From the NCBI RefSeq assembly GCF_011044495.1, contig NZ_CP049143.1:4030001-4094000 (forward strand): a DNA stretch of 64,000 nucleotides. Direction: 5' to 3'. The stretch comes from Roseimicrobium sp. ORNL1. Lineage in GTDB: Bacteria > Verrucomicrobiota > Verrucomicrobiia > Verrucomicrobiales > Verrucomicrobiaceae. Under the pieces are notes generated by a model. It was not told where the DNA came from. It made no database searches and was given only the letters and a program-made list of their open reading frames with translations. Numbering within the stretch: position 1 is the stretch's first letter; the number at the start of each line of letters is the position of its first letter. A program made the translations under genes and the position numbers. Shown piece after piece: positions 3,281 to 25,700 of the stretch.

Positions 3281-3308
3281 TCCATTTCGGGCAGTTCATG
3301 GACGATCT

Positions 3309-3524
3309 GTGGGATGGGGTTCCAATTCCCAATGGCGCACCAGTATCCGGAGGGACTATCGCCTGGGTGATACCTTCTACTACAATGTTGACGGCACTCG
3401 CGAACCACAAGTGCCGGACGTCAGCGCAGAGGAGTCCGCAGAATTGTTGCGTCATCGATGCTTTATCATCAGCGCGGTGGCGGATGACGATCTCTATCCC
3501 TATGCTTCCAGTATAATAGGCTGA
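3309..3524 (+). CDS. small hypothetical ORF, possible C-terminal half of the preceding gene
   Basis: A 71-residue frame starting at GTG, soluble in character (DYRLGDTFYYNVDGT, VSAEESAELL). It starts 29 bases after the previous stop and in a different phase. The frame is open back to about 3273. Together with 2960-3280 it could be one membrane protein with a soluble tail broken by a frameshift, or two real short genes. Nothing in the sequence decides between these. Confidence 0.3.
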   Translation: MGWGSNSQWRTSIRRDYRLGDTFYYNVDGTREPQVPDVSAEESAELLRHRCFIISAVADDDLYPYASSIIG

Positions 3525-3597
3525 CACCTTCATGACAGCTTGCGTATGAGCATTGATTTCGTTGTGCATTCACGCGGATAATGCAGCAGTCCTGCCA

Positions 3598-4551: not shown

Positions 4552-4734
4552 AGAAGCCTCGTCTGCAATGTCTCACTCCGTCTGGGTGCGTGCGCCCGGC
4601 GAGCGGGAATTGTAATAGTTTACCACTCCTGCGTACAAGCCCTCATTTAGAGGAGAACGGCCCAGTGTTTTTGCTAAACATTTACAAAACACCCTGCTAA
4701 TCTCGCGTACGACTCAAACGTACACCAAACAGTC

Positions 4735-5319
4735 ATGAATGCGTTTCCCAAATCGATTGTGCAGCCGCTTCGCTCCCGCATTGCCCGTGTCGTAATGACC
4801 GCGTTCGTTTGGGGCATTGCCGCAACGTTCACCCAAGCCCAGGAATCCACCGGTGGTCGTCCTGACCTGCTGACCAATGCGGGTTTCGAAAGCGGGCAGG
4901 AAGGCTGGGCGTTCAACTGCCACAAGGATAAGGGCAAGGTAGCCGTGGACAAGGAGGTGAAGCGCACGGGTGAGGCGAGCATCCGGATCGAAAATTCCGG
5001 TGGTGATGACAGCTTCTTGAAGCAAGCGGTGAAAGTGAAACCCAAGACGCGCTACCGTCTCTCCGGCTATATCAAAACGAAGGACGTGGAAGTGAAGGGC
5101 GGGCAGGCCGCCACGCTTGCTCTGGAAGGTGGCTTCGAGTCCACGGAATCCGCGAAAGGAACAGGCTCGTGGAAGAAATTTGATTTCGAGTTCGACTCCG
5201 GCACGCTGGACACCGTCAAGGTCGGCCCCCGTCTCGGAGGCCACTCCAGCGCGGCGATGGGCACGGCGTGGTATGATGACTTGAAGTTGATTGAGCTGGG
5301 GCCTTCGCGGAATCGCTAG
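4735..5319 (+). CDS. secreted protein with carbohydrate-binding-like (CBM4/9/22-type) beta-sandwich
   Basis: A 194-residue protein with an N-terminal signal peptide (basic start, hydrophobic core VVMTAFVWGIAATFTQA, probable cleavage after TQA). The mature part is a single jelly-roll domain of the CBM_4_9/CBM22 type: LLTNAGFESGQEGW at the start, AVKVKPKTRYRLSGYIKT in the middle, and TAWYDDLKLIEL at the end are the characteristic strands. Such domains usually sit on glycoside hydrolases, but here no catalytic domain is present. The protein is therefore probably an exported stand-alone binding module. Its ligand cannot be read from the sequence. Confidence 0.7.
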   Translation: MNAFPKSIVQPLRSRIARVVMTAFVWGIAATFTQAQESTGGRPDLLTNAGFESGQEGWAFNCHKDKGKVAVDKEVKRTGEASIRIENSGGDDSFLKQAVKVKPKTRYRLSGYIKTKDVEVKGGQAATLALEGGFESTESAKGTGSWKKFDFEFDSGTLDTVKVGPRLGGHSSAAMGTAWYDDLKLIELGPSRNR

Positions 5320-5350
5320 ACATCTGACCTGCCATGTCAAAACATGCGAA

Positions 5351-5983
5351 ATGAGTGGACGGTTTGAAGCCATAGGAGGAGCAAGGATCGGATGGTTGAA
5401 TGCAACCTGGCCGTTCGCCCGGCTTTCCGCCACGCCGGATACCCTCCAGATGTCCGTAAGTATCTTCGGTGATTACCATTTCACTCCGGATACAGTCACC
5501 GACATCACGCGATACACGCACATTCCGTTTTTCGGCTGGGGAATTCAGATCCACCACTGCGTGCCGGAGTATCCCACCCGCATCATTTTCTGGTGTCTCG
5601 GCAGTCCAGATGTCTTGCTTGCAAAAATTCGCGAGTCGGGTTTCCAGCCACAATCATCTGGTGAGGCAGCAACATTCCTGCGGCATCGTGGCGTGCCCTT
5701 CCGGTGGGCACCCGTGATCTTTGCCCTCATCGTGTGGAACGCACTGATCATTGGCGATGTATTTCAGCGGGGCATGCGCCCCATGCCTGGACCGTGGAGT
5801 TTGCTTGCCATCGCCCTCGTTTTTGCGGGCTCCATGGCAATCCTGAAGCTCCCCCGGGCTCAACAATTCATCCTCAAGCCTGGAAGAAGCGTGGAGGAAA
5901 TTCGCCCTCTCCTCAAGCTATTCCTGCTGGTTTCAGGCGGGATGATTGTGCCCTTTTCCGTATTGCTGCTCGTCATGCGTTGA
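5351..5983 (+). CDS. membrane protein of unknown function
   Basis: About 210 residues from the ATG at 5351, a start chosen because it lies beyond the end of the preceding gene; an earlier in-frame start at 5291 would overlap it. The N-terminal 115 residues are soluble. Three hydrophobic segments follow (APVIFALIVWNALIIGDVF, SLLAIALVFAGSMAILKL, LFLLVSGGMIVPFSVLLLVMR), leaving a very short C-terminus. No known domain recognised. Confidence 0.5.
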   Translation: MSGRFEAIGGARIGWLNATWPFARLSATPDTLQMSVSIFGDYHFTPDTVTDITRYTHIPFFGWGIQIHHCVPEYPTRIIFWCLGSPDVLLAKIRESGFQPQSSGEAATFLRHRGVPFRWAPVIFALIVWNALIIGDVFQRGMRPMPGPWSLLAIALVFAGSMAILKLPRAQQFILKPGRSVEEIRPLLKLFLLVSGGMIVPFSVLLLVMR

Positions 5984-6122
5984 GCGGAGCAAGGCGACCA
6001 AGTGGACGCAAATCCAACGTGAGACCGCCAATGCCGCTTTGAAAAAAAGCCCTCTTGGACTCGAAGAGCAACGGTAAGTTCCGGCTGAGAGACTGAAGGG
6101 TGGTTGCGTGCGCCACTCACTC

Positions 6123-7427
6123 TTACCCTTTCTTCTCCGCCAGCCGCCCGATATTCAACAGCGCGGCTTCGCTGTTCTTGGGACCGATGAACTGCACGCT
6201 GGTCACGGGGAAGGCTTCCGTCTTCGGCAGCGGTACTGGGATGGCGACGGCGGGGACGCCGGCGTAGTTCACGGCGACGGTGTTCTGGATTTTCAGGAAA
6301 CGGGCTTCGAAGATCGCGGTGAAGGCGACGTTGCGATGATAGGGCGCGCGCTGCAGCACGGGAAGCGCGATGGCATCCACTTGTTTGAAGGTCTGGTGCA
6401 GGACATTCCGCCAGTGGTCGCGACGAGCAATGGCGGCCTCACGCTTGGCTTCGTCATCATACTTGCGGGAGAAGACGAGGTCTCCGAAGAGGATGGCCTT
6501 GCTGGCGCGGTTGCCCACGCCCTTCTGCTTGCGGATTTCGTCGTTGTTGTAGTAGGAGGCGGCAGCGGCGACCAGGTTGCCGTCACTCTGGGCCTTCTGC
6601 CACTCCGCGTGAAACTCAGCGCTGAGAGGGATGACGGTGAAGCCGGCCTCGGCAAGCTGCCTGTCGATGGCATCATCAATGGCGGGATCCGTGCCTGGTA
6701 CGCGAAGACGTCCGATGCGGATGGCCTTGGCCACGGGCTTGGTGGCTTTCGCCTGAGCGTATTCGTTCTTGAACCCCGGCTCCAGCAGCTCCATGCCGGT
6801 CACGAGTCCATCCACATCACGTGCCAGGGGCCCCACCGTGTCGAGGTAGGTCGGAGAGATGGGATAGACGCCCTTCGTGGAAATGCGGCCAAAGGTGGTC
6901 TTCAGGCCCGCGATGCCGCAGCAGCACGCAGGTACACGGATGGAGCCGGCGGTGTCGGTGCCGAGGGCCACGTCTGCCAGGTTCATGCCGACGGCGACGG
7001 CAGAGCCGCTGGAGGAGCCCCCGGGCACGCGAGATTTGTCCACGGGATTGACCGGGGTACCGAAGAAGTCATTCGAGCCTGAGACGCCGATGGCGAACTC
7101 GCTGAGGTTCGCCTTGCCCACGATGGTCACGTCCTTGCGACCACGGATGTACTTCATGCACTCCGCGTCCTTCGTGGCGGGCGGGGCGTTTTTGTAGAGG
7201 AATTCGGAACCGGCACTGGTCACCTCCCCTTTCATGTCGATGAGGTCCTTCACCGCGAGGCGCAAATTTTCGTCGTCCGGTGCAGGCGCCTTGTACGAGA
7301 TGAAGGCGTGCGGAGGCGGGGTGGACGGGGTGCGCAGCCCGGAGAAAGAGCAACTGGTGATGAGAAGCGCGGTGAGTGCACCTGCGGCACTACGAGAAAC
7401 CAACGTAAGATTGGCGAGGAGCTTCAT
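6123..7427 (-). CDS. amidase-signature family lipoprotein
   Basis: A 434-residue amidase (GatA/FAAH fold) hydrolysing an unknown amide. The Ser-cisSer-Lys triad is visible: Lys60 in LAVKDLIDMKG, the cis-serine in PGGSSSGSA (about 137-142), and nucleophile Ser162 in GTDTAGSIRVPA. It differs from GatA in having a secretion signal with a lipobox-like LITSC at residues 22-26 (Cys26), which suggests an envelope-anchored enzyme rather than tRNA amidotransferase. The start chosen is the ATG at 7425-7427, because it begins a proper signal sequence; the frame continues open to 7568. It is divergent from the gene at 7535. The odd CCCG cluster sits just after the nucleophile. Confidence 0.82.
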   Translation of the reverse strand: MKLLANLTLVSRSAAGALTALLITSCSFSGLRTPSTPPPHAFISYKAPAPDDENLRLAVKDLIDMKGEVTSAGSEFLYKNAPPATKDAECMKYIRGRKDVTIVGKANLSEFAIGVSGSNDFFGTPVNPVDKSRVPGGSSSGSAVAVGMNLADVALGTDTAGSIRVPACCCGIAGLKTTFGRISTKGVYPISPTYLDTVGPLARDVDGLVTGMELLEPGFKNEYAQAKATKPVAKAIRIGRLRVPGTDPAIDDAIDRQLAEAGFTVIPLSAEFHAEWQKAQSDGNLVAAAASYYNNDEIRKQKGVGNRASKAILFGDLVFSRKYDDEAKREAAIARRDHWRNVLHQTFKQVDAIALPVLQRAPYHRNVAFTAIFEARFLKIQNTVAVNYAGVPAVAIPVPLPKTEAFPVTSVQFIGPKNSEAALLNIGRLAEKKG

Positions 7428-7534
7428 CTGGGGAGTCTGTGGTCTGAAAATTGTCTCAACGGAAAGGTTGATTGATATCAAAGCGGGTTCGTTTGCCGAT
7501 TGCAATCCCCCGGTGGCTCGAAAGAGTAGGACTA

Positions 7535-8008
7535 ATGTCTGACAGTCAGGATGCCGCAGCCTCAACACCGAAGCTGTCGGTGCATGATAATAACATCTAC
7601 AGCTACGAGTTTGACTCGCGTAGCCGGAACCTCGTGCTGCGGACTGTGTTCAAGTTTACAGAGCCGCACGAATTTACCGATGTGTGGTTCTTGGATGTGT
7701 GGTGCCACCATCTGGAGGGCGTCCTGGGTGGTGACATCATAGAGCGCATCGTTGAGTGGGGACTTGATTACGAATTGAAGAATTTCGGGGACCTCTTTGA
7801 TCGCCTTAAAAACCAAATTGGCTGGCCTCCGGTGGACTGGAACAAAGAAACGCTTCACGAAGCTGTGGCCCGACTGAATCTGCGAGTCTGGCACATCAAC
7901 CCCAGTTATGGCATGGAAGGGTTCGTGATCGCGAAGGAAATGAGGATGGTTGGCAGGGAGGCGGAGGCTCCGCCATTGACCCCGCCACTGCAAAGCGTTC
8001 AAGAATAG
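7535..8008 (+). CDS. hypothetical soluble protein
   Basis: A 157-residue protein from the ATG at 7535; the frame is open from 7472. It is acidic and aromatic-rich with no signal or membrane segment (SYEFDSRSRNLVLRTVFKF, DVWFLDVWCHHLEG, IVEWGLDYELKNFGDLF). The composition and size resemble small immunity-type or DUF proteins, but no family can be named. It is followed 12 bases later by a small membrane protein gene, so the two may be co-transcribed. Confidence 0.5.
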   Translation: MSDSQDAAASTPKLSVHDNNIYSYEFDSRSRNLVLRTVFKFTEPHEFTDVWFLDVWCHHLEGVLGGDIIERIVEWGLDYELKNFGDLFDRLKNQIGWPPVDWNKETLHEAVARLNLRVWHINPSYGMEGFVIAKEMRMVGREAEAPPLTPPLQSVQE

Positions 8009-8020
8009 GCACGAGCACTC

Positions 8021-8374
8021 ATGAAACCAGCATTCATAACCAGGTTATCTATCAGCCTTTTCGGTTTAATCGCTATGGGTGCCTCGATGTCGATGGGTGT
8101 TTTTGGCGCAGCAGGACTGTGCGCCTATATCTGGGGGCCCTCGATTCTCGACACGGTACTGGGCGAGTCTCCCGATCGAAGTCATCCAGCTTTCATCACC
8201 TTTCTCCTCGTGATGGTTCCTGGCATTGTGATTGGCGCCGTCGGTGGAGTGGCAGGTGTGCTGGTGCCGCTTTTTTCGCCTCGGTATCCGCTGCATGGAT
8301 GTACCCTGGTTCTTTTCGCCTGGGTCCGTGATAAGTATGCGTGCTTTCGCCCACCGAATCTTGAGCATCACTGA
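8021..8374 (+). CDS. small membrane protein
   Basis: A 117-residue protein with two long hydrophobic segments (SISLFGLIAMGASMSMGVFGAAGLCAYIWG and FITFLLVMVPGIVIGAVGGVAGVLVPLF). It is tightly spaced after the preceding hypothetical gene. No known family. Confidence 0.5.
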   Translation: MKPAFITRLSISLFGLIAMGASMSMGVFGAAGLCAYIWGPSILDTVLGESPDRSHPAFITFLLVMVPGIVIGAVGGVAGVLVPLFSPRYPLHGCTLVLFAWVRDKYACFRPPNLEHH

Positions 8375-8631
8375 GGCCGGGAACATAGAAGACAAGCCCC
8401 GTCTCCCCCGGTCAGAGCCCCCAGCGTAGTAGTTCTGAGCCTGCGTTGCGACCGCATCAAGCACGCTTCTTTTGCTGGAACAGGCTGTCGATGACACCAT
8501 GCATCGACACAGCGCGATTAATCAGGCGCTCCACGTTCTCTTATCAAAGTAGGGACTTCGTCGCATCCTCATGCAAGACCTGGCTTTCGTGTCTCTTTTA
8601 TCTGGCAGTATCACGCTCCCCATTCTTTCCC

Positions 8632-9735
8632 ATGAACCGACGCGACACATTTGCGGTGCTGCTTGCGGGACTTTGTTCCCCCACTCTCCTGCGTGCTCAA
8701 TCACCCTCACTCAAGCCTGATGTCATGAAAGCCGCCACCGCGCTTCTGCAAACCCAGATCGACAAGGGCACCATCGAAACGGCAGTGCTCCACGTGCAGC
8801 GCGGATCGGAGATTTTTCGGCAGGCGTTTGGCAAGGTCCAGTCCACGGACGCAATTTTCCTGCTGGGGTCGATCACCAAACCCATGACGGCCATCGCGGT
8901 GATGGTGCTCGCGGACCGTGGCGCGCTGCGGCTTTCCGATCCGGTGATGAAGTTCATCCCCGAGTTCTCTGAGGGCGCGAGGAAGAAGATTTCCCTGGAG
9001 CACCTGCTGGTGCACACATCGGGCCTGCCGGATCAACTGCCGGAGAACAACGAAGTCCGCCGGCGTCATGCGCCGCTGTCAGAGTTTATCCAGGCCACGG
9101 TGCGTACGCCGCTGCTCTTCGAACCGGGCACACAATACCACTACCAGAGCATGGGCATCCTCCTCGCGGCGGAAGTGGTACAGCGCGTCGCCAAGGCATC
9201 GCTGCCGGATTTCCTTTCGAAGGAAGTGTTCGCCCCGCTGGGCATGAAGCACAGCGCGCTCGGATTGGGGACGTTCAAGATGGAAGAGATGGTGCGAGTG
9301 CAGACGGAACACGCGGCCCCGGAATCCGGCGCGGGCGCGGCGGATGCGAAGGAATGGGACTGGAACAGCCCCTACTGGCGCAACTTGGCTGCGCCATGGG
9401 GAGGCGCCCACTGCAGCGCGGGAGATGTGGCGCTGTTCCTTCGCAGCTTTTTGCATCCGGAAGGCAAGGTGCTGCGCCCGGAAACAGCGCGGCTCATGAT
9501 TCAAGATCACACGCCCGGACTCAGTGCGCGCCGGGGAATTGGCTTCGCCCTCGGCCCCGCCGGATTCGGCAAGGGGTGTTCCGACCAATCCTTCGGCCAC
9601 AGTGGATCCACGGGTATGCTGGCCTGGGCTGATCCCAAGACCGATCTCTCGTGCGTGATCCTGACTTCGCTGCCGGGCACGGTGTCGCGGCCCCTGGTGT
9701 TGGAGCCGGTGTCAGATGTGGTCTCGGGACAGTGA
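8632..9735 (+). CDS. serine hydrolase of the beta-lactamase/penicillin-binding fold (class C-like)
   Basis: A 367-residue exported protein with an N-terminal MNRRDTFAVLLAGL signal. The active-site SxxK is S80-I-T-K83 in LLGSITKPM. The second motif, usually YxN or YSN, reads Y171-Q-S in YHYQSMGILLA, and the third is HSG in FGHSGSTGM. The LEHLLVHTSGLPD segment is typical of this family. Members include esterases, D-amino-acid peptidases and carboxypeptidases, so true beta-lactamase activity should not be assumed. The start at 8632 is chosen because it begins the signal; the frame is open from 8446. Confidence 0.82.
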   Translation: MNRRDTFAVLLAGLCSPTLLRAQSPSLKPDVMKAATALLQTQIDKGTIETAVLHVQRGSEIFRQAFGKVQSTDAIFLLGSITKPMTAIAVMVLADRGALRLSDPVMKFIPEFSEGARKKISLEHLLVHTSGLPDQLPENNEVRRRHAPLSEFIQATVRTPLLFEPGTQYHYQSMGILLAAEVVQRVAKASLPDFLSKEVFAPLGMKHSALGLGTFKMEEMVRVQTEHAAPESGAGAADAKEWDWNSPYWRNLAAPWGGAHCSAGDVALFLRSFLHPEGKVLRPETARLMIQDHTPGLSARRGIGFALGPAGFGKGCSDQSFGHSGSTGMLAWADPKTDLSCVILTSLPGTVSRPLVLEPVSDVVSGQ

Positions 9736-9739
9736 TCTC

Positions 9740-10237
9740 TCAGGCTCTGCTTTTCCGCTCCAGGAGCAAGGCATCAATCACGTCATGCATGCCCACAAAG
9801 CGCTCGATCACTGACTCCATATCTTGGCGAAAGGTGGCTTCATCCAGCGGCATCCAGCCCTGCATGAGTGTTTGGGGGCCGTAGTCGGTGCTGAGGTTCG
9901 GCCAGCCTGATCCCTTCGGATGTGCTTCGAGCTTTTCGCGGAACGCGGAGGCAAATTCACGAGGCTTCACCACATGCCCGGGCAAAGTACCCAGCTTGAG
10001 GGAGTGGATGTTGTAGTTGAACCGGCGCGTCTTCAGTTCCTTTTCGCCCAGCCAGACGGAGAAGAAAATCCCCTGCCCCGTGCCTCCTGCGGTCCATGCG
10101 TCCTTTTGCAACTTGAGAGTGGCGCTATCCATCCAGTCACCGGCCTCGCAGCGGAGCTGATGCTTGCGCATCAAGTCCGCGGACATCGCGTCCTTGATGT
10201 TCTCAAGGATGCCGAGGTAGGAGGCGTACGAGGTCAT
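9740..10237 (-). CDS. hypothetical soluble protein
   Basis: A 165-residue protein without a signal or membrane segment. Conserved-looking stretches are GTGQGIFFSVWLGEKEL, YNIHSLKLG and PNLSTDYGPQTLMQGW, which suggest an alpha/beta domain with a C-terminal helical region. It ends 4 bases after the end of the convergent serine hydrolase gene. Function unknown. Confidence 0.55.
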   Translation of the reverse strand: MTSYASYLGILENIKDAMSADLMRKHQLRCEAGDWMDSATLKLQKDAWTAGGTGQGIFFSVWLGEKELKTRRFNYNIHSLKLGTLPGHVVKPREFASAFREKLEAHPKGSGWPNLSTDYGPQTLMQGWMPLDEATFRQDMESVIERFVGMHDVIDALLLERKSRA

Positions 10238-10269
10238 ATCTTTGCCACCAGCGTTTATAGAGCAACATG

Positions 10270-10285
10270 ACTCGCGAGCTACGTT
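10270..10285. repeat. 16-bp repeat copy 1 (ACTCGCGAGCTACGTT)
   Basis: The 16-mer ACTCGCGAGCTACGTT occurs here in the short gap between two minus-strand genes, and again exactly at 49957-49972 in another gap. It contains the palindrome CTCGCGAG. One exact 16-mer match in 64 kb is near the chance expectation, so significance rests on the palindrome and the intergenic location. Confidence 0.35.
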
Positions 10286-10300
10286 GTTGGAGCACGCAGT

Positions 10301-11728
10301 TCAGGTCCCCACGCCAAACGCCGGCTGGCCGGTGCTGAGCACGATCTGTTTCCAGAACATGCCACTGGTGGTCAGTCGTTTCTGTCCTTGGGCGATGAGC
10401 GGTAGCGGAACCAGGACGAACTCAGAAAGCCAGTAGGAAATGACGCAGCGCGTGTAGCCGGCGAGACCAGCCTCCACGGCGAGCGCGCCGAGACGGTCGC
10501 AGTAGGTCTGGTCGAAGGCATTCGGCGGAATGGCGCGAATGTGGTGGCGCGGACGGTTCACAAACGTGCCCACGCTGCGACCACGGCCATCCTTCAGACG
10601 ATTCTTGAGCCAGCGCTCCACTTGATAAGAGAAGCGATCGTGAATGGGTTCCTCGTCCCCGATCTTCACCTTGCGCTGCCACATGAGCTCCCCCACCCCC
10701 TCGGCGACGACGATCACGCCTTCGCCGCGCGGCATGGCTGCCACTTTCGTCACCACGTGCTCCAGGCACTGCATGAGCACGTCCTCAATCTCCTCGGAGG
10801 TCTGATATCCGGCGAACATCTCGGGAATAAGCACCAGCGTCGCTTTGCCAAAAGCGTGTGCCGCATTGGCAGCCACGAATCCGGACTCGGCGCCGAAGAG
10901 TTCCACAATGCCCACGCGGCGGGTGGAGCTGGCCTCGGTCTCCATCTGGCGGATCACATCCGTCGCCTTGTCCACCGTGGTACTGAATCCGAAGGATTGG
11001 GCCACCCAGAGGATGTCATTGTCCATCGTCTTGGGCACGCCGATGACAGCCATGTCCGGCACGAGCTTGGCAATGTGATTGGCAGCGCGCAGGGAACCAT
11101 CGCCGCCGATGACGTAGAGGATATTGATCTTCTGCTTGCGCAGGTTCTCCACAATCTTGGCCGTCTGGTCCACGAACACATCCTTGTTCACGCGGCGCAG
11201 GCCCAGCTTGGAGCCGCCTTCCGCCAGGTGCTCGCGGGTGAAATCTGGGGAGAGCAGGCCGATGTCCATCTCATCGCCCAGCAGGCCGGTGATGCCGTCA
11301 TAGACGCCGAATACCGCACCGCCTTGGGAGATGTCGCACCCATAGGTGGCGTAGTGGCGCTGTACAATGGCGTGCGTCACGCGATTCAAGCCAGGGGCAA
11401 CCCCACCGGACGTGACGATGGCAGCACGCACGGTCTGGGGATTGAAAAACAGTTTCTTGCGCGGACCCGCCTCTGGGAATCCCGGTACGGGCCTTCCAGC
11501 GGCAATGAAGGTCTCGATGTAGTCCATGTCCGCCAGCACGGCACGGCGGGAGTCCTCCGGGCGGAACAAGCCCAGGAGTTCTTCTGATTGCGGATTGTCG
11601 AATTCCGGCTGGCCCAGGCGCTCTACGGTAGTCTGCAGGGAGTCGCGCGCCTCATAGGCCACGCGCCGCTCACTGATGAGCGCGGCGGCACCATCGATGA
11701 CGGACTTCTGACGCGTGAGGTTTTCCAT
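10301..11728 (-). CDS. pfkA: ATP-type 6-phosphofructokinase
   Basis: A 475-residue enzyme phosphorylating fructose 6-phosphate in glycolysis. The Rossmann-type core starts around residue 102 (IVTSGGVAPGLN), with GGDGS at 208-212 and PKTMDND at 232-238. Gly at position 211 (GGDGS rather than GGDDS) predicts ATP as donor. The PKTxDND form is shared with plant and spirochaete ATP-PFKs as well as PPi enzymes, so the donor call is inference. The extra 95-residue N-terminal segment and the total length fit this larger PFK subgroup rather than the 320-residue E. coli form. Confidence 0.85.
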   Translation of the reverse strand: MENLTRQKSVIDGAAALISERRVAYEARDSLQTTVERLGQPEFDNPQSEELLGLFRPEDSRRAVLADMDYIETFIAAGRPVPGFPEAGPRKKLFFNPQTVRAAIVTSGGVAPGLNRVTHAIVQRHYATYGCDISQGGAVFGVYDGITGLLGDEMDIGLLSPDFTREHLAEGGSKLGLRRVNKDVFVDQTAKIVENLRKQKINILYVIGGDGSLRAANHIAKLVPDMAVIGVPKTMDNDILWVAQSFGFSTTVDKATDVIRQMETEASSTRRVGIVELFGAESGFVAANAAHAFGKATLVLIPEMFAGYQTSEEIEDVLMQCLEHVVTKVAAMPRGEGVIVVAEGVGELMWQRKVKIGDEEPIHDRFSYQVERWLKNRLKDGRGRSVGTFVNRPRHHIRAIPPNAFDQTYCDRLGALAVEAGLAGYTRCVISYWLSEFVLVPLPLIAQGQKRLTTSGMFWKQIVLSTGQPAFGVGT

Positions 11729-13531: not shown

Positions 13532-14917
13532 ATGGCACGCCGCATGGCCCTCTTCGGGGGCAGCTTCAATCCACCGGGTTTGCACCATCTCCGCCTCGCG
13601 GAAGTGCTGGCGCGTGAGTTTGACGAAGTGCGCGTGGTGCCCTGTGGCCCCCGGCCGGACAAGCCGGAGGTGAACTCCGTTCCCTCCGTATTCCGCGCAG
13701 CGCTGTGTGACCTGACTTTTGGCGACTTGGAGAGCGGCACCGTCGTGGTGGATCTCTTCGACCTGGAGCAGGATACCTTTACGCGGAATTTCGCCCTGGA
13801 GGAGCGGTACAAGGGGGAGGCGGAAGTCTGGCACGTGGTAGGCGCCGACTGGATCGAAGGCGGCGCGCAGAAACGCTCGGCCATCCACACCGGCTGGTCC
13901 AAGGGACCCGAGCTCTGGCAGCACAGCCGCTTTGCCATCCTCACGCGGCCCGGTCATGCCATTGATGCGGCAGATCTTCCCCCAAATCATGTGCTCATTC
14001 CTGTGGAGATCCCGGGGTCGAGCACCCTGATACGCGACTCCCTCATGCACCGGCGCGAGGTGGCGAACCTGCTCACCCCAAAGGCCCACCGCTACATCAA
14101 CCGCTACGGACTCTACCGCGGCACCAATCCCGCCTCCTGGTCACGCGGGAGCCTGGAGGATCTGAAGTGCATTCTGCAAACGGACCCCCGCAATGGGAAA
14201 TCCGTGGACTGGCAGGATCGTTTCCGTCCGCATGTGAATGAAGCATCCCCGGATTTCATCCTCACCCTGGGTGGGGACGGAGCCATGCTGCGCTGCATTC
14301 GTGAGCACTGGCGGAGGAGGCTGCCCTTCTTCGGTGTGAACGCGGGTCATGTGGGATTCCTGCTGAATGCGCCGGAGCAGGTGTTTGAGCAGTCGTTCCC
14401 TCCCTCCGAGGTGATCTTCCGCCAGCTCCCGCAGATCTATATAGAGCTGGAGACCACCACGGGGGAAACTATCGAGGCCTACGCTTTCAATGACGCGTGG
14501 CTGGAGCGCTCCACCAGCCAGAGCGCGTGGCTGGAAATCAAGGTGAATGACATTCCGCGGCTGCCGAAGCTGGTGAGTGATGGCGCCCTGGTCTCCACCG
14601 CTGCAGGCAGCACGGCCTACGCCCGCGCCATGGGTGCCTCCCCTCTCCTCGCAGATACCCCCGCGTGGCTGCTGGTGGGCTCCAATGTGCTGGAGCCGGC
14701 GCATTGGAAGAGTGCCCTCCTCTCTAACGACACGACGGTGGAAATCACCAACCTGGACTGCGAAAACCGCCCGACCATCGCCTACGTGGACGGCGTGGCT
14801 CAGGGCGAGGTGCGCAACTTCCGGGCTCGTCAGAGCCGGGCCGCAGCGGCGGAACTCGTCTTCTTGGCGAACCGTGACATGGCGGAGAAAATCGCCGGGA
14901 TTCAGTTCATGCGTTGA
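13532..14917 (+). CDS. fusion of NadD-like adenylyltransferase and NAD kinase
   Basis: A 461-residue ORF with two NAD-pathway domains. Residues 1-195 are a NadD-like nucleotidyltransferase (nicotinate mononucleotide + ATP to deamido-NAD): GGSFNPP at 9-15, VVGADW near 100, and the ATP-binding SSTLIR near 162. The catalytic HxGH is altered to GLHH. Residues about 205-461 are NAD kinase: LGGDGAM near 247, VNAGHVGFL, FNDAWLER, and the DGALVSTAAGSTAYA loop near 350-360, which is the substrate/catalytic region. No stop or frameshift lies between the domains. The ORF would join the penultimate-stage enzyme of NAD synthesis to NADP formation. argS follows 48 bases later. Confidence 0.85.
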   Translation: MARRMALFGGSFNPPGLHHLRLAEVLAREFDEVRVVPCGPRPDKPEVNSVPSVFRAALCDLTFGDLESGTVVVDLFDLEQDTFTRNFALEERYKGEAEVWHVVGADWIEGGAQKRSAIHTGWSKGPELWQHSRFAILTRPGHAIDAADLPPNHVLIPVEIPGSSTLIRDSLMHRREVANLLTPKAHRYINRYGLYRGTNPASWSRGSLEDLKCILQTDPRNGKSVDWQDRFRPHVNEASPDFILTLGGDGAMLRCIREHWRRRLPFFGVNAGHVGFLLNAPEQVFEQSFPPSEVIFRQLPQIYIELETTTGETIEAYAFNDAWLERSTSQSAWLEIKVNDIPRLPKLVSDGALVSTAAGSTAYARAMGASPLLADTPAWLLVGSNVLEPAHWKSALLSNDTTVEITNLDCENRPTIAYVDGVAQGEVRNFRARQSRAAAAELVFLANRDMAEKIAGIQFMR

Positions 14918-14965: not shown

Positions 14966-16720
14966 ATGTCCACTTTTCGCAAGCTGCTGTCCCAGCGTCT
15001 CCAGGCCGCCTTCGCCGCGGCAAATATCACCCTGCCCGAGGGTGCGGTCATTGATGTGACGAACGCCAGCGACTCACGATTTGGCGACTACCAGAGCAAT
15101 GCCGCCATGACGGTGGCGAAAGCGCTCAAGACCAATCCTCGCCAGCTCGCCACCACCATCACGGAGACCTTTGACGGCACCGGTCTCTGCCACAAGCCGG
15201 AGGTGGCCGGACCTGGCTTCCTGAACTTCCGCCTCACGAATGAGAAGGTCGCGGAATCCCTCAACGCCCAGGTGGCGGACGCGCATCTTGGAGTGCCGCG
15301 CGCCGAACAGGCGAAGACCATCGTGGTGGACTTCTCCGCGCCGAACGTGGCGAAGCCCATGCACGTGGGCCACATCCGCAGCACCTTCATCGGCGACAGC
15401 CTGGCACGGCTCGCGCGCTATGTGGGGCACCAGGTCATCACGGACAATCACATCGGCGACTGGGGTACCCAGTTCGGCATGATCATCCACGGCTGGAAGA
15501 CGCGGATGGACAAGGATGCCCTGAAGAAGGATCCGATTCACGAGCTCGTGCGCGTCTACAAGAATGTGAACGCCGAGGGCAAGGAGAACGAAGCCGTGCG
15601 CGAAATGTGCAAGACGGAGCTGGTGAAGCTCCAGCAGGGCGATGCAGAGAATCTCGAAATCTGGAAGGAGTGTGTGAAGCTCACGCTCGACCAGCTGCAC
15701 GATGTCTACGGCAAGCTCGACATCAGCTTTGACCACTACCTCGGTGAGAGCTTTTACAACGATGCCCTTGGACCGCTCGTGGAGGACATGCTCGCCCAGG
15801 GTCAGGCTCAGGTGAGTGACGGAGCGGTGTGCGTCTTTTCCGATGGCGCCAAGAAGCAGGATCAGGATCCTTTCCTCATCTTCAAAGATGGCGAGTGGAC
15901 CGCTCTTCCCCTCATCATCCGCAAGGCGGACGGTGGCTTCCTCTACGGCACCACGGACCTCGCGACGGTGGACTACCGCGTGAAGGAGTGGAAGGCCGAG
16001 GAAATCTGGTACGTGGTGGGCGCACCGCAGCAGCTTCACTTCCGCCAGCTCTTTGATGCCTCGCGGCGTCGCGGTCACCAGACCCGGATGGAGCACATCG
16101 CCTTCGGTTCGATTCTGGGACCAGATGGAAAAATGTTCAAGACCCGCTCCGGTGAGAGCGTGGGCCTGCTTGAAGTAATCGACGAAGCCGTAGAACGTGC
16201 CGCCGGCGTGGTCGCGGAACGCGAAGGCTTCACCGATGCGGAGAAGGCTGAGGTCGCGGAGATCATCGGCATCGCCGCCGTGAAGTACGCGGAACTGAGC
16301 CAGCACCGCATGACGGACTACAAATTCTCCTGGGACAAGATGCTCTCGCTTCAGGGGAACACCGCGCCGTATCTCATCAACGCGTATGTACGCACGCGTG
16401 CTATCTTCAGGAAGTTGGAAGGTGCTGTCACGCTTACTGATGATGTGCAACTCACTGAAGATGCCGAGCGCGCTCTCGCACTGAAGCTACTGCAGTTCGG
16501 CGAGGCCGTGCACGACGTACTGGAAGACTTCCGTCCAAATCTGCTGGCGCAGTATTTGTATGAACTGGCGGATACGTTCCATACCTTCTATGAGGCGTGC
16601 CACGTGCTGCGCGCGGAAGGTACTGCGCGCAACACCCGTCTCGTGCTCTGCGACGCCACCTCCCGTGTGCTGAAGGAAGGTTTGGGACTGCTGGGGATCA
16701 AGACGACGGAGCGGATGTAA
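14966..16720 (+). CDS. argS: arginyl-tRNA synthetase
   Basis: A 584-residue class I aminoacyl-tRNA synthetase charging tRNA-Arg. The N-terminal Add-1 domain is followed by the catalytic domain with the HIGH motif as HVGH (133-136, in PNVAKPMHVGHIRST) and DNHIGDWGTQFG. The KMSKS equivalent is the degenerate KMFKTRSG, common in ArgS. The C-terminal DALR anticodon-binding domain ends the protein (HTFYEACHVL, LGLLGIKTTERM). The start is the ATG at 14966; a TTG further upstream at 14939 is less likely. It shares the strand with the preceding NadD-NadK gene and the following giant gene, 65 bases away. Confidence 0.95.
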   Translation: MSTFRKLLSQRLQAAFAAANITLPEGAVIDVTNASDSRFGDYQSNAAMTVAKALKTNPRQLATTITETFDGTGLCHKPEVAGPGFLNFRLTNEKVAESLNAQVADAHLGVPRAEQAKTIVVDFSAPNVAKPMHVGHIRSTFIGDSLARLARYVGHQVITDNHIGDWGTQFGMIIHGWKTRMDKDALKKDPIHELVRVYKNVNAEGKENEAVREMCKTELVKLQQGDAENLEIWKECVKLTLDQLHDVYGKLDISFDHYLGESFYNDALGPLVEDMLAQGQAQVSDGAVCVFSDGAKKQDQDPFLIFKDGEWTALPLIIRKADGGFLYGTTDLATVDYRVKEWKAEEIWYVVGAPQQLHFRQLFDASRRRGHQTRMEHIAFGSILGPDGKMFKTRSGESVGLLEVIDEAVERAAGVVAEREGFTDAEKAEVAEIIGIAAVKYAELSQHRMTDYKFSWDKMLSLQGNTAPYLINAYVRTRAIFRKLEGAVTLTDDVQLTEDAERALALKLLQFGEAVHDVLEDFRPNLLAQYLYELADTFHTFYEACHVLRAEGTARNTRLVLCDATSRVLKEGLGLLGIKTTERM

Positions 16721-16785
16721 AAAGTCGTCCTTCTTCTAAGGCTGCCGCGCTTGTGCCCGTTTGTTATGATCTGGTAAAACCAGAC

Positions 16786-19700
16786 ATGCGGCGACATCCT
16801 CAGGGCAGCTTTGTTCTTTACCGTCAGTGGCAGCAATTGGTTTACCCGCTGCTGCTCTTGCTGGCATTGCTGCCGCTGGGACGGGTACAGGCTCAAGAGC
16901 AACCCTCAGCGGCAACCAGCCCTCCTACCGCTGAAGTACTGAAGTATCATGACATGCTACGTCGCCGGCCGCAGACGGGCGTGGTGTTTGACCGTTTCAT
17001 GGGAGCTTGGCTCGCGACCGGCAGTCGGGATACGCTGCGGGAGTTTTTGCTGAAGGCATCCGATGCGGCGGATGCAATGGCGGCGGACCATCTCATCCTG
17101 GCGCTGTATTATTCCTCCTCTGGTCAGGATGCGGAGGCGCTGAAGGCGTGTGAGAGGGCGGCACAGAAGGCGCCGGATGAGCCCTTGATTCACCTGCGCA
17201 CGGCAGAGATCGCCAACCGGTTGAAGGATTGGGACACCGCCCTCACGGCATTGACACGAGCCTCTCAACTTGGCCTCACCGGTGAGAGCGACATTCGCGC
17301 GACTCGTCTGCAAACTGACACGCTCTGGAGGCTGGGACGCGCTTCCGAAGCGAAGGACGTTTTCCACAAACTCATCGAACGTCATCCTGATGAATCCTCC
17401 CTGCGCGAAGAGTTGGTGGACATGCTGGTGGAAAACGGCCTGAAACCAGAAGCCGCGATCGAAAGCCGGACGCTGGTGGATCTCACGAAGGATCCGTTTG
17501 AGAAAGCGATGCGGCGTTTGCGCTTGGCGGACCTCCTCCTGGATCTCCGCAAGGTGCCGCAAGCCCGCACCGAGTTGGATCTCACCCTTGCACAGAGTGG
17601 CACCGACTTCTGGCTGGAAGGTGAAGCTCTCGATCGCATGGAGCGCCTGTACCGCCGCAGCGGTGACGTCCCCGGCTTTGCCACGAAGCTCGCCGAACTC
17701 GCCAAGCAACATACCAACCGTGTGGCCATCGTCCGCCGGCAGATGCGCATCCTCACCGAGATAGGAAAGCCCATGGATGCCTCTGCACTTGCAGCAGCTC
17801 TGCTCGAGCGCACTCCGGGACGGCAGGATGTGCGTGAGGACTACATCAATCTCCTCGAATACCAGGGGAACATTCGCGAGGCGGTTCAGCAGGCAGAGGA
17901 ACTCCTGCGCCAGCAGCCGGGTGACAGTGCGCTCATGCTACGACTCGCAGGGTTGCATGGACGAAATGGTTCTCCAGATCGCACACGTGCCCTGGTCGAA
18001 CAGTTCCTCAACCAATCGCCCGATGACGAAGGCGCGCTGCTGCTCGCAGGCCGGTTATTGGAGCGTCTCGGTCTCGATGACGCCGCACATGATCTCTATG
18101 AGAAGTGGATGAGTAGTCATCCGCAGGATCCGCTCGCTGGGTTGTCACTGGCTGCGCTGCTGCATCGCAAAGGTGACGTGCCGGATGCGATTGCCCTGTG
18201 GCGGAAACTAGCCGCACAGGGTGACCTTTCCGCAGCAAGCCAGATAGCCACGGCAGCGGCGAATCGTGGCGAGGACCTGGCAGCGTTTGAGATCCTCAAG
18301 GCGCGAGAGCAGGAGTTCATCAATGACCTTAGAGTTCTCACACAGGCCTGCAATCTTGCCCTGCAGGCCCGTCAGGAGACATCATGCGTGCGCTGGCTGC
18401 GCCGCTACGCGCAGCTCGTGAAGGATCCCGGCGAACTGCAGCGGCTGGCCACGCTCACCGGTGGCATGCTGAATCGCCAGAACATCCGCAAGCTGCTGCT
18501 GGACGACTTTGCGAAGACTCCAGCCTCCGGCATCAGTGATGGCCTGCTCCTGGCATTCGCGCATGAATTCACCACGCCTGAAAATGCCTATGACGAACGG
18601 CAGGCTGGCATGCATAAGGCGGATGAGCTTCTGGCACAGGTTTGGAAGGCACTTCCCCACCCTGCGGATGCACCGCTGAGCATGGAAGAAACGCTGGTGG
18701 AGGCGGGACACGCACATGTACTCAACCGTCGACGCGAATGGTCGGCGCTCCTGCGCATCCTCAGCGATAACGCCAAGCGACCCGGTGGAAAAACTTCAAT
18801 GCGCTTGCAAGACCTCGCTGAAACAAGTGCGGAAGCCTTCGAATACGATGCCGCGCTACGCTGGATTGCTGAGTGGAAGGCAGCCGCTCCGACAAGCCAC
18901 ACCCCGTGGCGTTTGCAGGCAAGACTCCTGCGGAGCACGGGCCAACCGGCGAAGGTGCTTGAGGTACTGCGCGAGGCGGCACGCCGATTCCCAGATGAGG
19001 AGGACATCACCTTTCAACTGGCAGATGCCCTGTCTGAAGCAGGTCTTGCAAGCGAGGCACTCGCGACATTGCGCGAGCTCTTCGATCAAAAGGACGATGC
19101 CACGCAGCGGCTGCGCATCGGGTCGCAGATGGTGCGCACGGCAAAGAAAACCAACCAGCTCGATTTGCTGCTGGATGAGTGGAAACGGAATCAGCGCGAG
19201 CATGCGGACTCCCCCGAAGCCTGGCGCCTGCTGGCAATGGTGTATCGCGAGAAGCCCGATGTGGCGGCGCATGGCAACGCCCTCGGGGAAGCGCTGCGAC
19301 TCTCGCCCAATGACATCATGCTGATGCGCGAGCTGGCTGTGAGTGAAGACGCGCGGGGAAATGTGGAAAAGGCAGCGGAACTCTACCGGCAGGCAGCGCG
19401 AAAGGATTCCAGTCCGCAAGCCAGACGCTCCTATGCCGACTTCCTTCTCAAACGCGGTGACGATGAAGAAGCGCTGCAAATCATGCAGGAGATTGCCAGC
19501 GCCCAAACCACCAAGACCGCGGACATCGAGCAATTGGCAGACAACCTGATGGGAGCACGCCTGTGGAAGGAAGCAGCCGCCCTGCTGGAAGAACCCGCAC
19601 GCAGCCAGGCCCAGAACGCCCGTCTTCAATACCAGCGGGGTGTTGCATTGGAGGAGTCCGGCAAACTGGAGGAAGCCGCACAACATTTCACCCGTGTACT

Positions 19701-22700
19701 GCTGATCCAGGAGGAGATGGTGGATGCCACGCCTCTGCCTCCGCTTCAGGAGCCCCCTCTCCTGCCGGAGATGCCCGGCTCACTCTGGTGGCATCGTCTG
19801 CGCGAACAAGCCCCAGATGCCTATGAATACCGGGGACAGCCGGAAATGATAGCACGAGCGCAGACAGTGCGTCGCCCTGGGCCAGCGCTCAACGTGCGAC
19901 TGCCCATCTGCAAGGAAGAAGCGCAGGTCTTTGCGCTGAGGCATCTGGCGCGCCTTGCGGAAATTGGGCGCACACAGACTCCCGAACTGGCTCCCCTGAA
20001 ACTTCCCGAGAGTGTGCCCATGGCAACGCTATGGACCAATCTGGTCATCCGGCAAATCTGGGGACGCAGCGAATTCATCACCACCGCTGCACAAGTTCGT
20101 GAGCATCCTGTTCTCCTGGCCAGCTGGCTTCGAGGGAACGTAAAAACTCCGAATCTGCCCGAAGAAGAATCCATCGCGCTATTGGATCATGCCGAGCAGA
20201 CTTTTTCCAAATCCCATCCCGAACTCGCAGCTGAAGCTGCGCTGCTCCACGCCTTCATTGATATGTCAGAGACTCCCGGAGTGAGCATGGAGCGCGCCCT
20301 GGAGTTCGCCAGACATTCCACCGCGAGCATGGAGCGCCTCGCCGAGCTTTCTTCCGCGCTGGTATGCGAGCTGCCAGATCCCTACATGGCGGGAATTCTT
20401 CCGCGGGGTCGGCTCTCACAGGAAGAAGAGAAAAAGCTTCTCTCCGTCCTGACCTCCTGGGCGCTGAACGCTTCATCCACCGATGCGAGGGCTGGCGTCA
20501 TCCTTTCTCACGCTGCCTGCAGTCTGGCCACGCGAGGACACTGGGAGGGATGGCGCAAACTCCTCGACGAAGCGCTTCCCCGCATCCGTGCCAATGCCGC
20601 GGTACTGGCAATGCAGGCCAGCTCGAAGGAAGTCGGCGCCTATACTTTCAACTTCCTTGCCTTTCCTTCCCAAATCCATTCTGGATACGGGATTAATCCG
20701 GCTCTGTGTCTTGCGCAGAGTTCCTCGTGGCTGGGAGGAGCCACCGGTGAGCACGCACCTGCCTCACTGGTCGCGGAAGCACGAGACCCTCTCACCAGAT
20801 TGCTCTGCCTCCAGGCGTCAGGCCACGAAGCGGATCTGAAGCAGGAAGCCATGCGGCTGGCGGAGGCTTATCCCACCCGCGATGATGTGCTCTTTCTGAA
20901 AGCCAGTGTGCTGGCCATGGATGGCAAATCCGAGGAACTCACCAAGGCCCTCTATCAATGGGCCGCGCTTCCCGTGACTGAAGAAGTGCAGCGTAGCCGC
21001 GCCCGGTATTTGTTAAGCACCGCGGTGGATGGCTCCCTTCCCGCTGACGACGCCATACAAGCCGTGGTGCTCGCCGCGGCAAAGCATCTTGTCGCGCTCG
21101 GTGAACTGGAAGATCAACGCTCCCCCAGCGGCATCGCTGAGTCGCTCAAGAGTGCAGGGTTTGTGACCCAGGGACAAATGCTGGCGAACTCCAGCACGCG
21201 GTACATTGGCAATATCCGCTCCACGGCGCAGAGCCAGCAGCACTCGGGCACGTTCACCAGCCAGATCGCCCAGGCTGTCCTGCGCAGCACGGACAGCACC
21301 CATGAGAGCGGCACCTCTTTTCAAACCGTCACGAACACGCTCCGCAAATTTGCCCGCCAGGAAATCGCCCTGGGAGGTGGCTATGCGCGCGCGCTCACCG
21401 ATGACGGGTGGCAAACACTTTCGCAGGCACTGTACCGCAAGAGTCCGGCTCGCCAGGCTCTGTTCGACCACCTGATGAAGGAAGCAGGCTCTCCACGCCT
21501 GAGTCATGCGGAAGGGGCCTTCATTGCAGATCGACTGGGCTTTTCAGCGACCGAAATTCACGAGCACTACCAGAAGGCACTCGACCAGAACCCCGGCGAT
21601 ACGAACATCCGTCTTCGGGCCATCTGTGCTCTGCTGGATACGGACACCGTTGCCGCTCAGAAACTCTATGCGGCAGCTCCTTTGGAGGATCGCATGTTCA
21701 TCGGTCAGTCGATCTGTGATAATGCCGGGCGCAACAGCCTGGTGCTTACCCAGATCGCATCACGTTTCATGGTGGAACTGCTTCACACTGTCCCAAGTCG
21801 CAGGGACGGCATCGTGGATCTTCAATGGATCAGTGCACTCCTCACCAACCTCGCCTGGTCCGGCGAGGGATTTAGTGCTCCCGGCATCAGTGATCTCCTG
21901 CAAACGGAGCCACCTGCACAGAATGGCGGCTTTGGCGCGCCACTCGTGGAGCCGCCTCCCGCCTATGGCGAAGGTCACGAACTCGCGGGCGACCTCGAAG
22001 AACTGTGCGAGGCAGCGATGGAAGTGCCCAACATGGCCGCCGCCGCCTACGGTTGCTACGCAGCACTGAAACTCAAGAAAGGCGCCACGGTGGAGTCGCT
22101 GGCACCAAAGGCCCGTGAAGTCCTGCAAACCGGAAGCCGGGCAAACGGCTGGATCTGGCACGAAGCCTTCAGCCACAATGAAGCAGCGGAGCCGAGTCAC
22201 CTGTGGCAGCCCTCGCCACTCGGACTGCTGGCATGGCACGCTTCCAAACAGTCCGACACTCGCGCCGCCTTCCGCGAACTCACATCCTTCGCACAGGGCT
22301 GCAAGGTCGTGCATGCAGACCTCATCGTAGCAGCACTGGAGCGGCTCTACACATGCCAGGAAGCGGACTTCCCCACTGCAGCGGCCGAGTTGGCGCATCT
22401 GCCCTATCCTGCGAGTTGGTGGCTGGATGCGCATCCCACCATCACGACGGCACGCATCTGGAAAGAACGGAACCTGGAGATCGATCCCGCCCAATTCGCT
22501 CTGAAGGAACCCGGCACGCCTATCTTCCACATCTCCAGACCCAGCGGAACTGGCATCGTGCTCGATACGCTGGCCACACGAGGGCACCGCGAGCAAGCGA
22601 AGGCCTTCATGCTGCAGGTGATGGAGACGGCTCTGGGGCCACGCGCGGAGTGGAGGGAGTTCTTCAAGAAACTGGGTGATGGCTACGACAATCCCGCCAT

Positions 22701-25700
22701 GCAACGAGTCGACTTCATCCATCGTTTGATGCAGAACATCTGTCAGACGAATTCCACACTGGTGTTCCTATCGCTCGAAGTTGCGGATGAATCGGGCATG
22801 CGGCATCATCCCAGTTTCCGTGCGGAGTATGTCCTTCCACCGTGGATGACGGAGAAGAATCTGTACGGCTTACCAGCCATGCGTTCTTCCCGGGCAGGGC
22901 TCAACTTCCTGGCGGGCAGTCCCTGGCTGACGGAAGGTGCGCCATTCTGGGACTGTCCACTGGATCCAGCTCAAAAGGACACTGTGCTCACCCGGCTGGC
23001 ATCCGCCATCAACCAGTTCGACAAACCTCTTCAAGCGGACATTCGTGCCACAATTGAGCACGCGGCCGCGAGCAATCCCGGTGCCGCCATCCTGCATGCC
23101 CTTGTATCCCGGGATCAACAGAAGCTGGTGGATGCCATCGCCTTTGCCAACGCTGGCATTGATCGAGCATCCAATTGCAGCATCGAAGCGCTGGGCCTGC
23201 TGATGGAGAAAGAGCTCGCCCCCTTCCTGAAAGTAACCGCGCAGACGCGAGCGCCCAAGGTACAGGCCGCCCTGCTCAAGCTGGGAGACATGGAGGCCGC
23301 CCGCAATGCGGAGGCATTCTTCACCGCGCGAAAAGTAGAGGCGCTCCAGATGAACGATGAGCAGTTTGAAGAGACCATGCGCCGCGCCGCCACCCAACTG
23401 GCCTCCACCGACCGGGCAAAGGCGGTGAGATTGCTGGATCGCGCATGTGCATTGATGGTCGACAAGCAATCGCGCCGCGGATGGAATGCCAGCACTGTTG
23501 CCAATGGATGGACCGCGTCAGGCGAAGCGCTGAAGAGGTGGTGTGACAAAACGCAGAGCCTGGATGTGGTGGCTGTCGCCTGCGATCTGTTCCACCAACC
23601 GGATGAGGTCAACGCCGCGAGCGCCGGCTGGTGGAACTCTCCCTCCTGGGGTGGCGCGCTGGTGACGGCATGGAAGGATGAAGGTGGTATCGGCAATCCC
23701 GCCGTAGGCCTGAAGGCAATGCTGCAAAGTCTGCATTCCAAACTGGCGATCAAAAAGGCGCCCCTGCTGATGCTCGCCTTCATGGACTTCCACGGGAAAC
23801 TCGATGTCTGGCAACGGCAGGAAGTGCTGAAGGCCGCTGATGCCCTGGCGAAAGAACAGACTGACATTTCACTCTATGCCTCGTGGTTGGGACTCGCATT
23901 CCGTCTCAACGATCTGGCGGAGGGAGCGCTCTGGCTTCCAGGCTCGCAAGATCCTGAAGTCATCCGAGGTGTGATGGAAGGTTTCCGCGCAGTCATCAAG
24001 GATGAGTCTGTCAATCCACTGGTGCGTCTCGCGGTAGCGCACAACCTGATGAACAAGGCAGGCAAGCATGCCGATCCGGAAACCATCTGGGCCGCGATGG
24101 ACCTGGCCACGCTGGCGGTGGAGAAGGAGTGGCCAGTGCACGACGATCTTATGCTGGACATCCTGAACGCAGTGAACCGGCTTCCCGCGGATGGGCGGTA
24201 CAAGGCAGCAGCCACACGATGGCTGCCCGCGTGGCTCCACCGGAATCGGCTTACGAACGGACAGAACTACGAGCCCCTGGAAGAATATCAGTCGGCCGTG
24301 CTCACCTTCGCCGCGCGTGGACTCGATGGTCTGATGCTCCGTCAGGCCTTGCGCAGCCTCTCGGGCTTGCAGCAGCGTTCTGCCGCGAGTTTGCTGACGC
24401 TGATCCGCCATGAGCGTGATGACGTGGCGCGAGACTTTCTCTTGCAGTCGAAGGATATGCTTCTCCGCGCCTCGTACAACAAACTCCAGCCTGAGGAGAG
24501 CGACATGGAAAAAGTCCGCGCCTTCGCCGAGACCTTGCCCAATCCTGACGAGCGTGTGCAGGTCATGGTGTATTGCTCCTCCTTCTATGGTCAGGGCATG
24601 CTGCCCGATCTGTGGGCGGACTCACGCGCGCTTTCGTGGAATCGCCGCATGGCGGAGCGGGCCCGCCAAGTGATGGAACACACATTCCAGGATGCCGCAT
24701 TGAAGGACAAGCTGATGCTCGAACTCGCCGACGCTCCGGCCGCCGTCATGGTGATGGAGCAGGAGATCAAAGAAAAGGATCTGCGTGAGATGACACGCCA
24801 TGCCTCCTTTGGTTCTGGCCCTGGCTCCACCGCGGAAACCCTGCGCTATCCCCTTGAGCTGACTTTGAACTTTCTAGTGAAACGCATTCGCGAAACTCCA
24901 CCGGAGGCACTCGCAGCCACGGGCTCCGTGTTTCCCGGGCCATATCCCAATCCACTGAACGAGGCGCAACTCAACTACCAGACGCTGCTGGAACGGATCG
25001 ACAGCGGTCGCAACAGTTGGGGCAAGACAGAGTGTACCCGTCAGGTGGAGGGGAACCTCTTTGAATCCACCATGCTCTCTGCTCCCTCCATGAGCGGCAC
25101 CTCCCTCGCGGGATTCCTCCCAGCATGGCATAAGATTCTCCGTGCCTACGCCGATGAGAAAGAGCGTTTCGAAGAAGAGGCGCTCGGCATTGCCACGCAG
25201 ATTGTCCTCGCGGGATTGTCCGGTAAGACTGCGGAAATCCAGGCCTGGCGGGAAGATGTGTCCCACTACCGCCGGGATTCTCTGAAGGCGCAATTCCTTG
25301 CCAAGCGTCACCTCATGCCGGTAGCGCAGCAACTCTGCAGGCTGGAGAACGGGCAGTGGCGTGGCTTTGATGAACGCTGGAAGCTGGTGCAGGCATTCGC
25401 CGAAGATGCATGGGTCGCGGAATATCTGAAGTCCTCACGCGACATCATCACGCAACTGGTGTGCAACCGTGTACTCACGATCGTGGAAGCCTTGGAGCAT
25501 GCGAAGGGACTCGCCACCATGTTCCCCGCGGAGGGACGCGTGGCCGCCGAACTCGCCTCACTCATGCAAATTCATCGCCGCGAGGATGAGGTGGCCACGC
25601 TGCTGACTCTTGCCGTGGAACAGGCAAAGGGACTCGAAGTGTGGGAGGCGGAATGGACCCTGCGCTTGGTGAAGTGGAAAGAGGATCACCAGCAGCGAGA

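Follow-up and report, generated by a model that had tools for sequence, protein, structure and literature searches.

Known NadD, NAD kinase and fusion enzymes

NadD and NadK, both essential and near-universal, have been studied as drug targets and are normally encoded by separate genes. Fusions of other NAD enzymes are known, among them NadM-Nudix and NadR, the latter combining an NMNAT with a ribosylnicotinamide kinase. Further examples are the glutaminase-NadE fusion (PMC3376133) and the NadD-YbeB fusion of Wolinella succinogenes (PMC3223725). All four join an enzyme of NAD synthesis to a partner, and none pairs NadD with an NAD kinase.

Here we describe a gene from Roseimicrobium sp. ORNL1, a member of the Verrucomicrobiaceae, in which a NadD-like domain is followed by an NAD kinase domain. 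The domains are of known kinds and, judged against the open-access literature, their combination is new; we found no published NadD-NadK fusion in open-access full text, which is weak evidence of absence. The gene and its features are listed below, with positions given in the window, i.e. the whole stretch of 64,000 nucleotides that was analysed.

13532..14917, + strand: NadD-NadK fusion gene, ATG start, 461 aa, no internal stops
13532..14125, + strand: NadD-like domain, predicted NaMN adenylyltransferase, residues 1-198 (PF01467 at 7-168, model and Foldseek)
13556..13588, + strand: GGSFNPPGLHH, residues 9-19; GxHH replaces (H/T)xGH, and the second His, H19, is retained
13640..13663, + strand: PCGPRPDK loop, residues 37-44; takes the place of P-N-x-x-P-P-H-K/R, the substrate loop of canonical NadD (aligned to 1kam of B. 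subtilis)
13841..13915, + strand: GADW (104-107) plus an extended loop as far as W129 (residues 104-128), with about 8 residues more than canonical NadD has
14018..14035, + strand: SSTLIR motif, residues 163-168 (alignments of fusions)
14156..14914, + strand: NAD kinase domain, residues 209-461 (structure match to 7qvs and Listeria NADK1)
14270..14281, + strand: GGDG motif, residues 247-250 (D249); invariant in the 26-sequence alignment and in 51/51 aligned fusions
14489..14494, + strand: NE/D motif, N320-D321; N in 51/51, D in 48/51 and E in 3/51
14576..14620, + strand: SDGALVSTAAGSTAY, residues 349-363; D350, S360, T361 and Y363 all 51/51
14966..16720, + strand: argS, arginyl-tRNA synthetase (Pfam tRNA-synt_1d, DALR_1, Arg_tRNA_synt_N); a neighbour outside the system

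Domain assignment and predicted structure

The initial annotation described an uninterrupted ORF with GGSFNPP, GADW and SSTLIR and then GGDGAM and GSTAY, and read it as a fusion of a NadD-like protein with an NAD kinase. All of these motifs lie where it placed them (GGDGAM at residues 247-252, GSTAY at 359-363), and the reading is borne out by sequence, predicted structure and conservation. When the two halves were searched for domains, both CTP_transf_like (PF01467, residues 7-168, 35.7 bits against a gathering cut-off of 21) and NAD_kinase (PF01513, residues 221-284, 39.4 bits against 25.5) scored above their Pfam cut-offs. NAD_kinase_C (PF20143, residues 334-421) scored below its gathering cut-off, with 18.7 against 23.7 bits. 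The best NCBIfam models were NF003406 for the kinase half (8e-44; 149.7 bits against an equivalog cut-off of 211) and TIGR00482 for the NadD half (5e-16; 59.3 bits against 112.45). Both scores are under the equivalog cut-offs, and both halves are therefore divergent. For the same reason, automated pipelines will probably annotate this fusion unreliably.

An AlphaFold model of the whole protein, with the 26-sequence alignment as input, gave a mean pLDDT of 90.9 and a pTM of 0.89, and a model of the NadD half alone (residues 1-200) gave a pLDDT of 93.3. The top 50 Foldseek matches of the NadD half were all bacterial NaMN or eukaryotic NMN/NaMN adenylyltransferases, and the first of them, 1kaq, matched with a TM of 0.80 by target, as expected of a NadD fold. 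The half departs from canonical NadD in its (H/T)xGH motif and in scoring below the TIGR00482 cut-off. The kinase half matched the Pseudomonas aeruginosa NADK 7qvs with a Z of 27.0 and an rmsd of 2.4 over 250 residues (VIA-align 2), and its structure match covers nearly all of Listeria NADK1, which indicates a complete NadK fold. Its place among the NAD kinases follows from the PF01513 score and the GGDG and NE/D motifs (D249, N320 and D/E321 each 51/51), and not from PF20143 or an equivalog model above cut-off. Compared with the nearest described NAD kinases (model NF003406/PRK04761, 7qvs and LmNADK1), it shares the complete compact fold, GGDG, NE/D, D350 and GSTAY, and differs by TAAGSTAYAR in place of TPTGSTAYS, a sub-equivalog score and a covalently attached NadD. 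By sequence and model, the protein is a NadD-like domain joined to a complete NAD kinase domain, with both activities predicted.

An unusual predicted NadD active site

With the canonical NadD of Bacillus subtilis (1kam/1kaq) and Escherichia coli (1k4k), the NadD half has in common the fold, GG(S/T)F(D/N)P, the second His of HxGH, GxD and S(S/T)xxIR. It differs in having GxHH for HxGH, PCGxRPDK for PNxxPPH(K/R), about 8 more residues past GAD, and the attached NadK. In the alignment to 1kam, HNGH of B. subtilis NadD corresponds to GLHH of the fusion and the loop P-N-Q-I-P-P-H-K to P-C-G-P-R-P-D-K. Three canonical active-site positions are changed, namely the first His of HxGH and the Asn and His of the PN..H(K/R) loop. 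The initial annotation mentioned neither the altered HxGH nor the divergent GxHH branch to which the NadD half belongs.

Most predicted catalytic positions of the two halves are conserved. In the NadD half, G16, H18, H19, R41, D106 and R168 are present in 51/51 aligned fusions and C38, D43 and K44 in 50/51 each. By alignment, H19, K44 and D106 are the counterparts of E. coli NadD residues, and the His-45 position is occupied by Asp. In E. coli NadD the H19A variant is at 0.62% of wild type, the second His of HxGH being the one shown to matter (PMC1249556).

The altered HxGH could indicate a NadD half with little or no catalytic activity that serves as a sensor or as a structural domain, with an unrecognised enzyme supplying NaAD. 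We regard this as improbable, since H19, D106 and R168 are kept in every aligned fusion, the retained His is the one that matters in E. coli, no other NadD-like protein was found in the Verrucomicrobiaceae, and the NadD half is under purifying selection. The dN/dS medians, from 6 close pairs only, show such selection on both halves, with 0.09 for the NadD half and 0.04 for the NadK half.

Sole copy and NAD pathway in the host genome

The genome is a single 7.96-Mb contig with 99.8% completeness. It encodes three PF01467 proteins, i.e. CoaD, an RfaE2-PurN fusion and the NadD-NadK fusion, and the only protein matched by NAD kinase models is the fusion. The initial annotation had considered that stand-alone enzymes might exist beside an inactive fusion; this is excluded for this complete genome, in which searches with PF01467, PF20143 and NF003406 found no stand-alone NadD or NadK. 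The fusion is the predicted sole supplier of NadD and NadK activity in this genome, and should therefore be essential. The RfaE2-PurN protein (locus L002, 505-1995, minus strand; CoaD is locus L001) unexpectedly joins an enzyme of LPS synthesis to one of purine synthesis, and is encoded by one 497-aa ORF (G000:C1 ~6134988-6135314) with matches to RfaE domain II (heptose-1-phosphate adenylyltransferase, 179.5 bits) and PurN (175.2 bits).

The product of NadC is NaMN, and NadE requires NaAD. Both enzymes are encoded in the genome (NadC 186.4 bits; NadE 245.8 bits, at G000 1129993-1130739), and a NaMN adenylyltransferase is therefore needed, for which the fusion is the sole candidate. A search of the genome for a PncB/NadV-type (NAPRTase-family) enzyme gave no match, which together with NadC and NadE makes NaMN the expected substrate. 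From this gene content we infer NaMN as the substrate of the NadD half, and likewise the two enzyme activities.

Were NMN the preferred substrate, NMN to NAD to NADP would be consecutive steps on one chain and channelling of NAD would be possible. In its substrate loop and past GADW the half departs from canonical NadD, so specificity could differ, and the Foldseek list includes eukaryotic dual-specificity enzymes and an Enterococcus faecium NadD-NMN complex. We nevertheless find an NMN preference very unlikely. The genome has NadC and NadE and lacks a PncB/NadV-type match that could make NMN from nicotinamide. Moreover, a fusion making only NAD from NMN would leave no source of the NaAD that NadE needs, and the relatives of the fusion in the CPR adjoin PncB, which makes NaMN, and NadE, which uses NaAD.

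Conservation in the Verrucomicrobiaceae and the phylum

The Verrucomicrobiaceae are soil and water bacteria. A full-length NadD match was found in 62 of 68 family genomes, and two such matches in none. Nearly all of these matches (59/62) lie within open frames of 461-581 aa, long enough for the fusion; two (G320, G321) seem to be truncated where a contig ends, and the one in the MAG G315 is split between frames. The remaining 6 of the 68 genomes are mostly incomplete MAGs with NadD fragments or no match. A sequencing error joining two genes, the other concern of the initial annotation, is excluded by the 59 matches in fusion-length frames, and a sequencing or assembly artefact is rejected more generally because many independent genomes carry the fusion.

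Full-length fusions in other genomes of the phylum sample are 52-67% identical over their whole length. Outside the family, a full-length fusion was found only in G257 within the 288-genome phylum sample, and the other matches are separate NadD or NadK genes. An extra NadK match is found on another contig in the family MAGs G321 and G333, and may be contamination. In the Verrucomicrobiaceae, the fusion appears indispensable. The extra NadK of G321 (L038) is a stand-alone protein and, by eye, has an alphaproteobacterial look.

Relatives beyond the family

A scan of 84,980 genomes for relatives gave 53 loci, mostly from the Verrucomicrobiaceae. Beyond the phylum sample, about 40 full-length fusions are found in public contigs, one of them (L098) from a named strain, Verrucomicrobium sp. 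BvORR106. Single MAGs that bear the names of other phyla also carry full-length fusions, as does Candidatus Uhrbacteria (L120, on a 569-kb contig), and G630 is a second CPR genome with the fusion. The MAGs named Acidobacteria, Myxococcota, Planctomycetia and Proteobacteria may be mis-binned, and we therefore rest no claims on their phyla. A scan of viral contigs for phage carriage returned no relative. Two CPR fusions have changed kinase motifs, SDI for SDG in L120 (4995-6380) and GSPAY for GSTAY in L152, and their kinase activity is therefore less sure.

Stand-alone NadDs with the FNPPGxHH signature are found in Patescibacteria (CPR; L124-L127, L129, L130, L181). In the tree they are the nearest relatives of the NadD half, and most of them also have PCGxRPDK or a near variant. 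Unlike the fusion they are unfused, and several are located in or near NAD-salvage gene clusters. A Blastocatellia MAG (L123, 1875-4328, + strand) has one 818-aa frame that unites a glutaminase-NadE with a GxHH NadD, and the corresponding two genes are adjacent in L125 and L129.

Among 20 genomes reached via fusion or stand-alone GxHH NadD loci, 11 also encode a canonical NadD and several likewise a canonical NadK. The NadD half is therefore not always the sole NadD, and some hosts can do without the fusion as far as NadD activity is concerned. In L116 (4474-5838) the NadD half is without SST.IR, the kinase half is intact, and the genome holds a canonical NadD. In L117 (G350, 5004-6359) the NadD half is without both GGS and SST.IR; the genome also encodes a canonical NadD, and no NadK other than the kinase half was found in it. 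The decay of motifs beside a canonical NadD in L117 speaks for a NadD half that can be weak or dead, and makes this locus, with its sole NadK, a useful natural control.

Gene clusters and origin of the fusion

In the CPR, the fusion and its relatives are found together with genes of NAD salvage. In brief, L120 (1403-8638) encodes NrtR, a PncA-like protein, two SLOG (TRPM-like) proteins, the fusion, PncB, a Nudix protein and NadE. L181 (3203-15158) encodes NrtR, a stand-alone NadD, a PncA-like protein, the fusion, an ADP-ribosylglycohydrolase, a Nudix protein and PncB. L182 (Falkowbacteria, 2389-10518) encodes NadD, an ADP-ribosylglycohydrolase, NadE, PncB, NadK and a NadM/Nudix-like protein, with the GxHH-type NadD and NadK as separate genes in one cluster. 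These CPR clusters argue that the GxHH NadD lineage works in NAD salvage via NaMN. No NAD-salvage cluster was seen around the fusion in the Verrucomicrobiaceae.

The fusions form one group both in the NadK tree (SH-aLRT 99) and in the NadD tree (SH-aLRT 96). Together with the CPR stand-alone GxHH NadDs they are set apart from the canonical forms of Verrucomicrobiota and other phyla (SH-aLRT 99); both trees are quick ones that were not bootstrapped, with long branches for several CPR sequences. The tree positions indicate that the NadD half was taken up from a source other than the ordinary NadD lineage of Verrucomicrobiota. They are consistent with one fusion event, followed by spread and by replacement of both ordinary genes in the Verrucomicrobiaceae. 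We suggest that the GxHH NadD lineage, free-standing in CPR salvage clusters, joined a NadK, probably once, and that the fused gene would then have spread and displaced the ordinary genes in this family.

Former neighbours in a cluster could also have been fused neutrally, with both halves working and only expression shared. The Falkowbacteria cluster, with GxHH NadD and NadK still separate, is in line with this, as is the lineage of L123, which joined NadE to GxHH NadD instead. Against it, almost the whole family has retained the fused state through deep divergence (52-67% identity), although elsewhere in the phylum the two genes are usually free-standing. A neutral origin is plausible, though in our view somewhat doubtful; it is compatible with our preferred explanation save for the coupling of the two steps.

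Proposed function

We consider it likely that the protein is a bifunctional enzyme, a divergent NadD together with NadK, that acts as sole supplier of both predicted activities in the Verrucomicrobiaceae and should be essential there. The N-terminal divergent NadD domain would convert NaMN and ATP to NaAD, a separate NadE would amidate NaAD to NAD, and the C-terminal NAD kinase domain would convert NAD to NADP. The main benefit, we infer, would most likely be that the entry to NAD synthesis and the exit to NADP are kept at a fixed stoichiometry and regulated together.

The initial annotation proposed channelling of mononucleotide through to NADP. In this form the proposal is not supported, since NadE is needed in between and the genome has no PncB/NadV-type match. 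With NadE acting after the NadD step and before the NadK step, direct channelling inside a single chain is unlikely, and a sensible version of the idea would be co-regulation or a complex that contains NadE. In its fullest version, NadE would dock between the domains of an NAD(P) metabolon, NaMN would be passed on to NaAD, NAD and NADP, and NADP(H) at the kinase half would feed back on the NadD half with its rearranged GxHH / C..DK site. We hold such a metabolon to be unlikely; if true, one polypeptide would control the whole making of NAD and NADP in a family, both ancestral enzymes having been displaced.

As a putative bifunctional enzyme, the fusion offers a natural test of whether the entry to NAD synthesis is coupled to the exit to NADP, with one gene controlling both pools. 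The GxHH lineage in turn tests how much of a 'universal' nucleotidyltransferase active site is needed.

Genomic neighbourhood

Next to the fusion gene lie argS, a phosphofructokinase gene and one unknown gene. The start of argS is 48 bases past the stop of the fusion, on the same strand. No match to a promoter or terminator consensus was found near the fusion gene. A conserved NAD operon around the fusion in the Verrucomicrobiaceae was considered and rejected, as none was seen among the neighbours. argS adjoins the fusion only in L078, L098 and L119, all of them Verrucomicrobium-like. For the unknown gene, which lies upstream, a relative is found beside fusions more widely than argS. Directly past argS, an ORF of 3064 aa at window 16597-25791 (+ strand) carries, by eye, TPR-like repeats.
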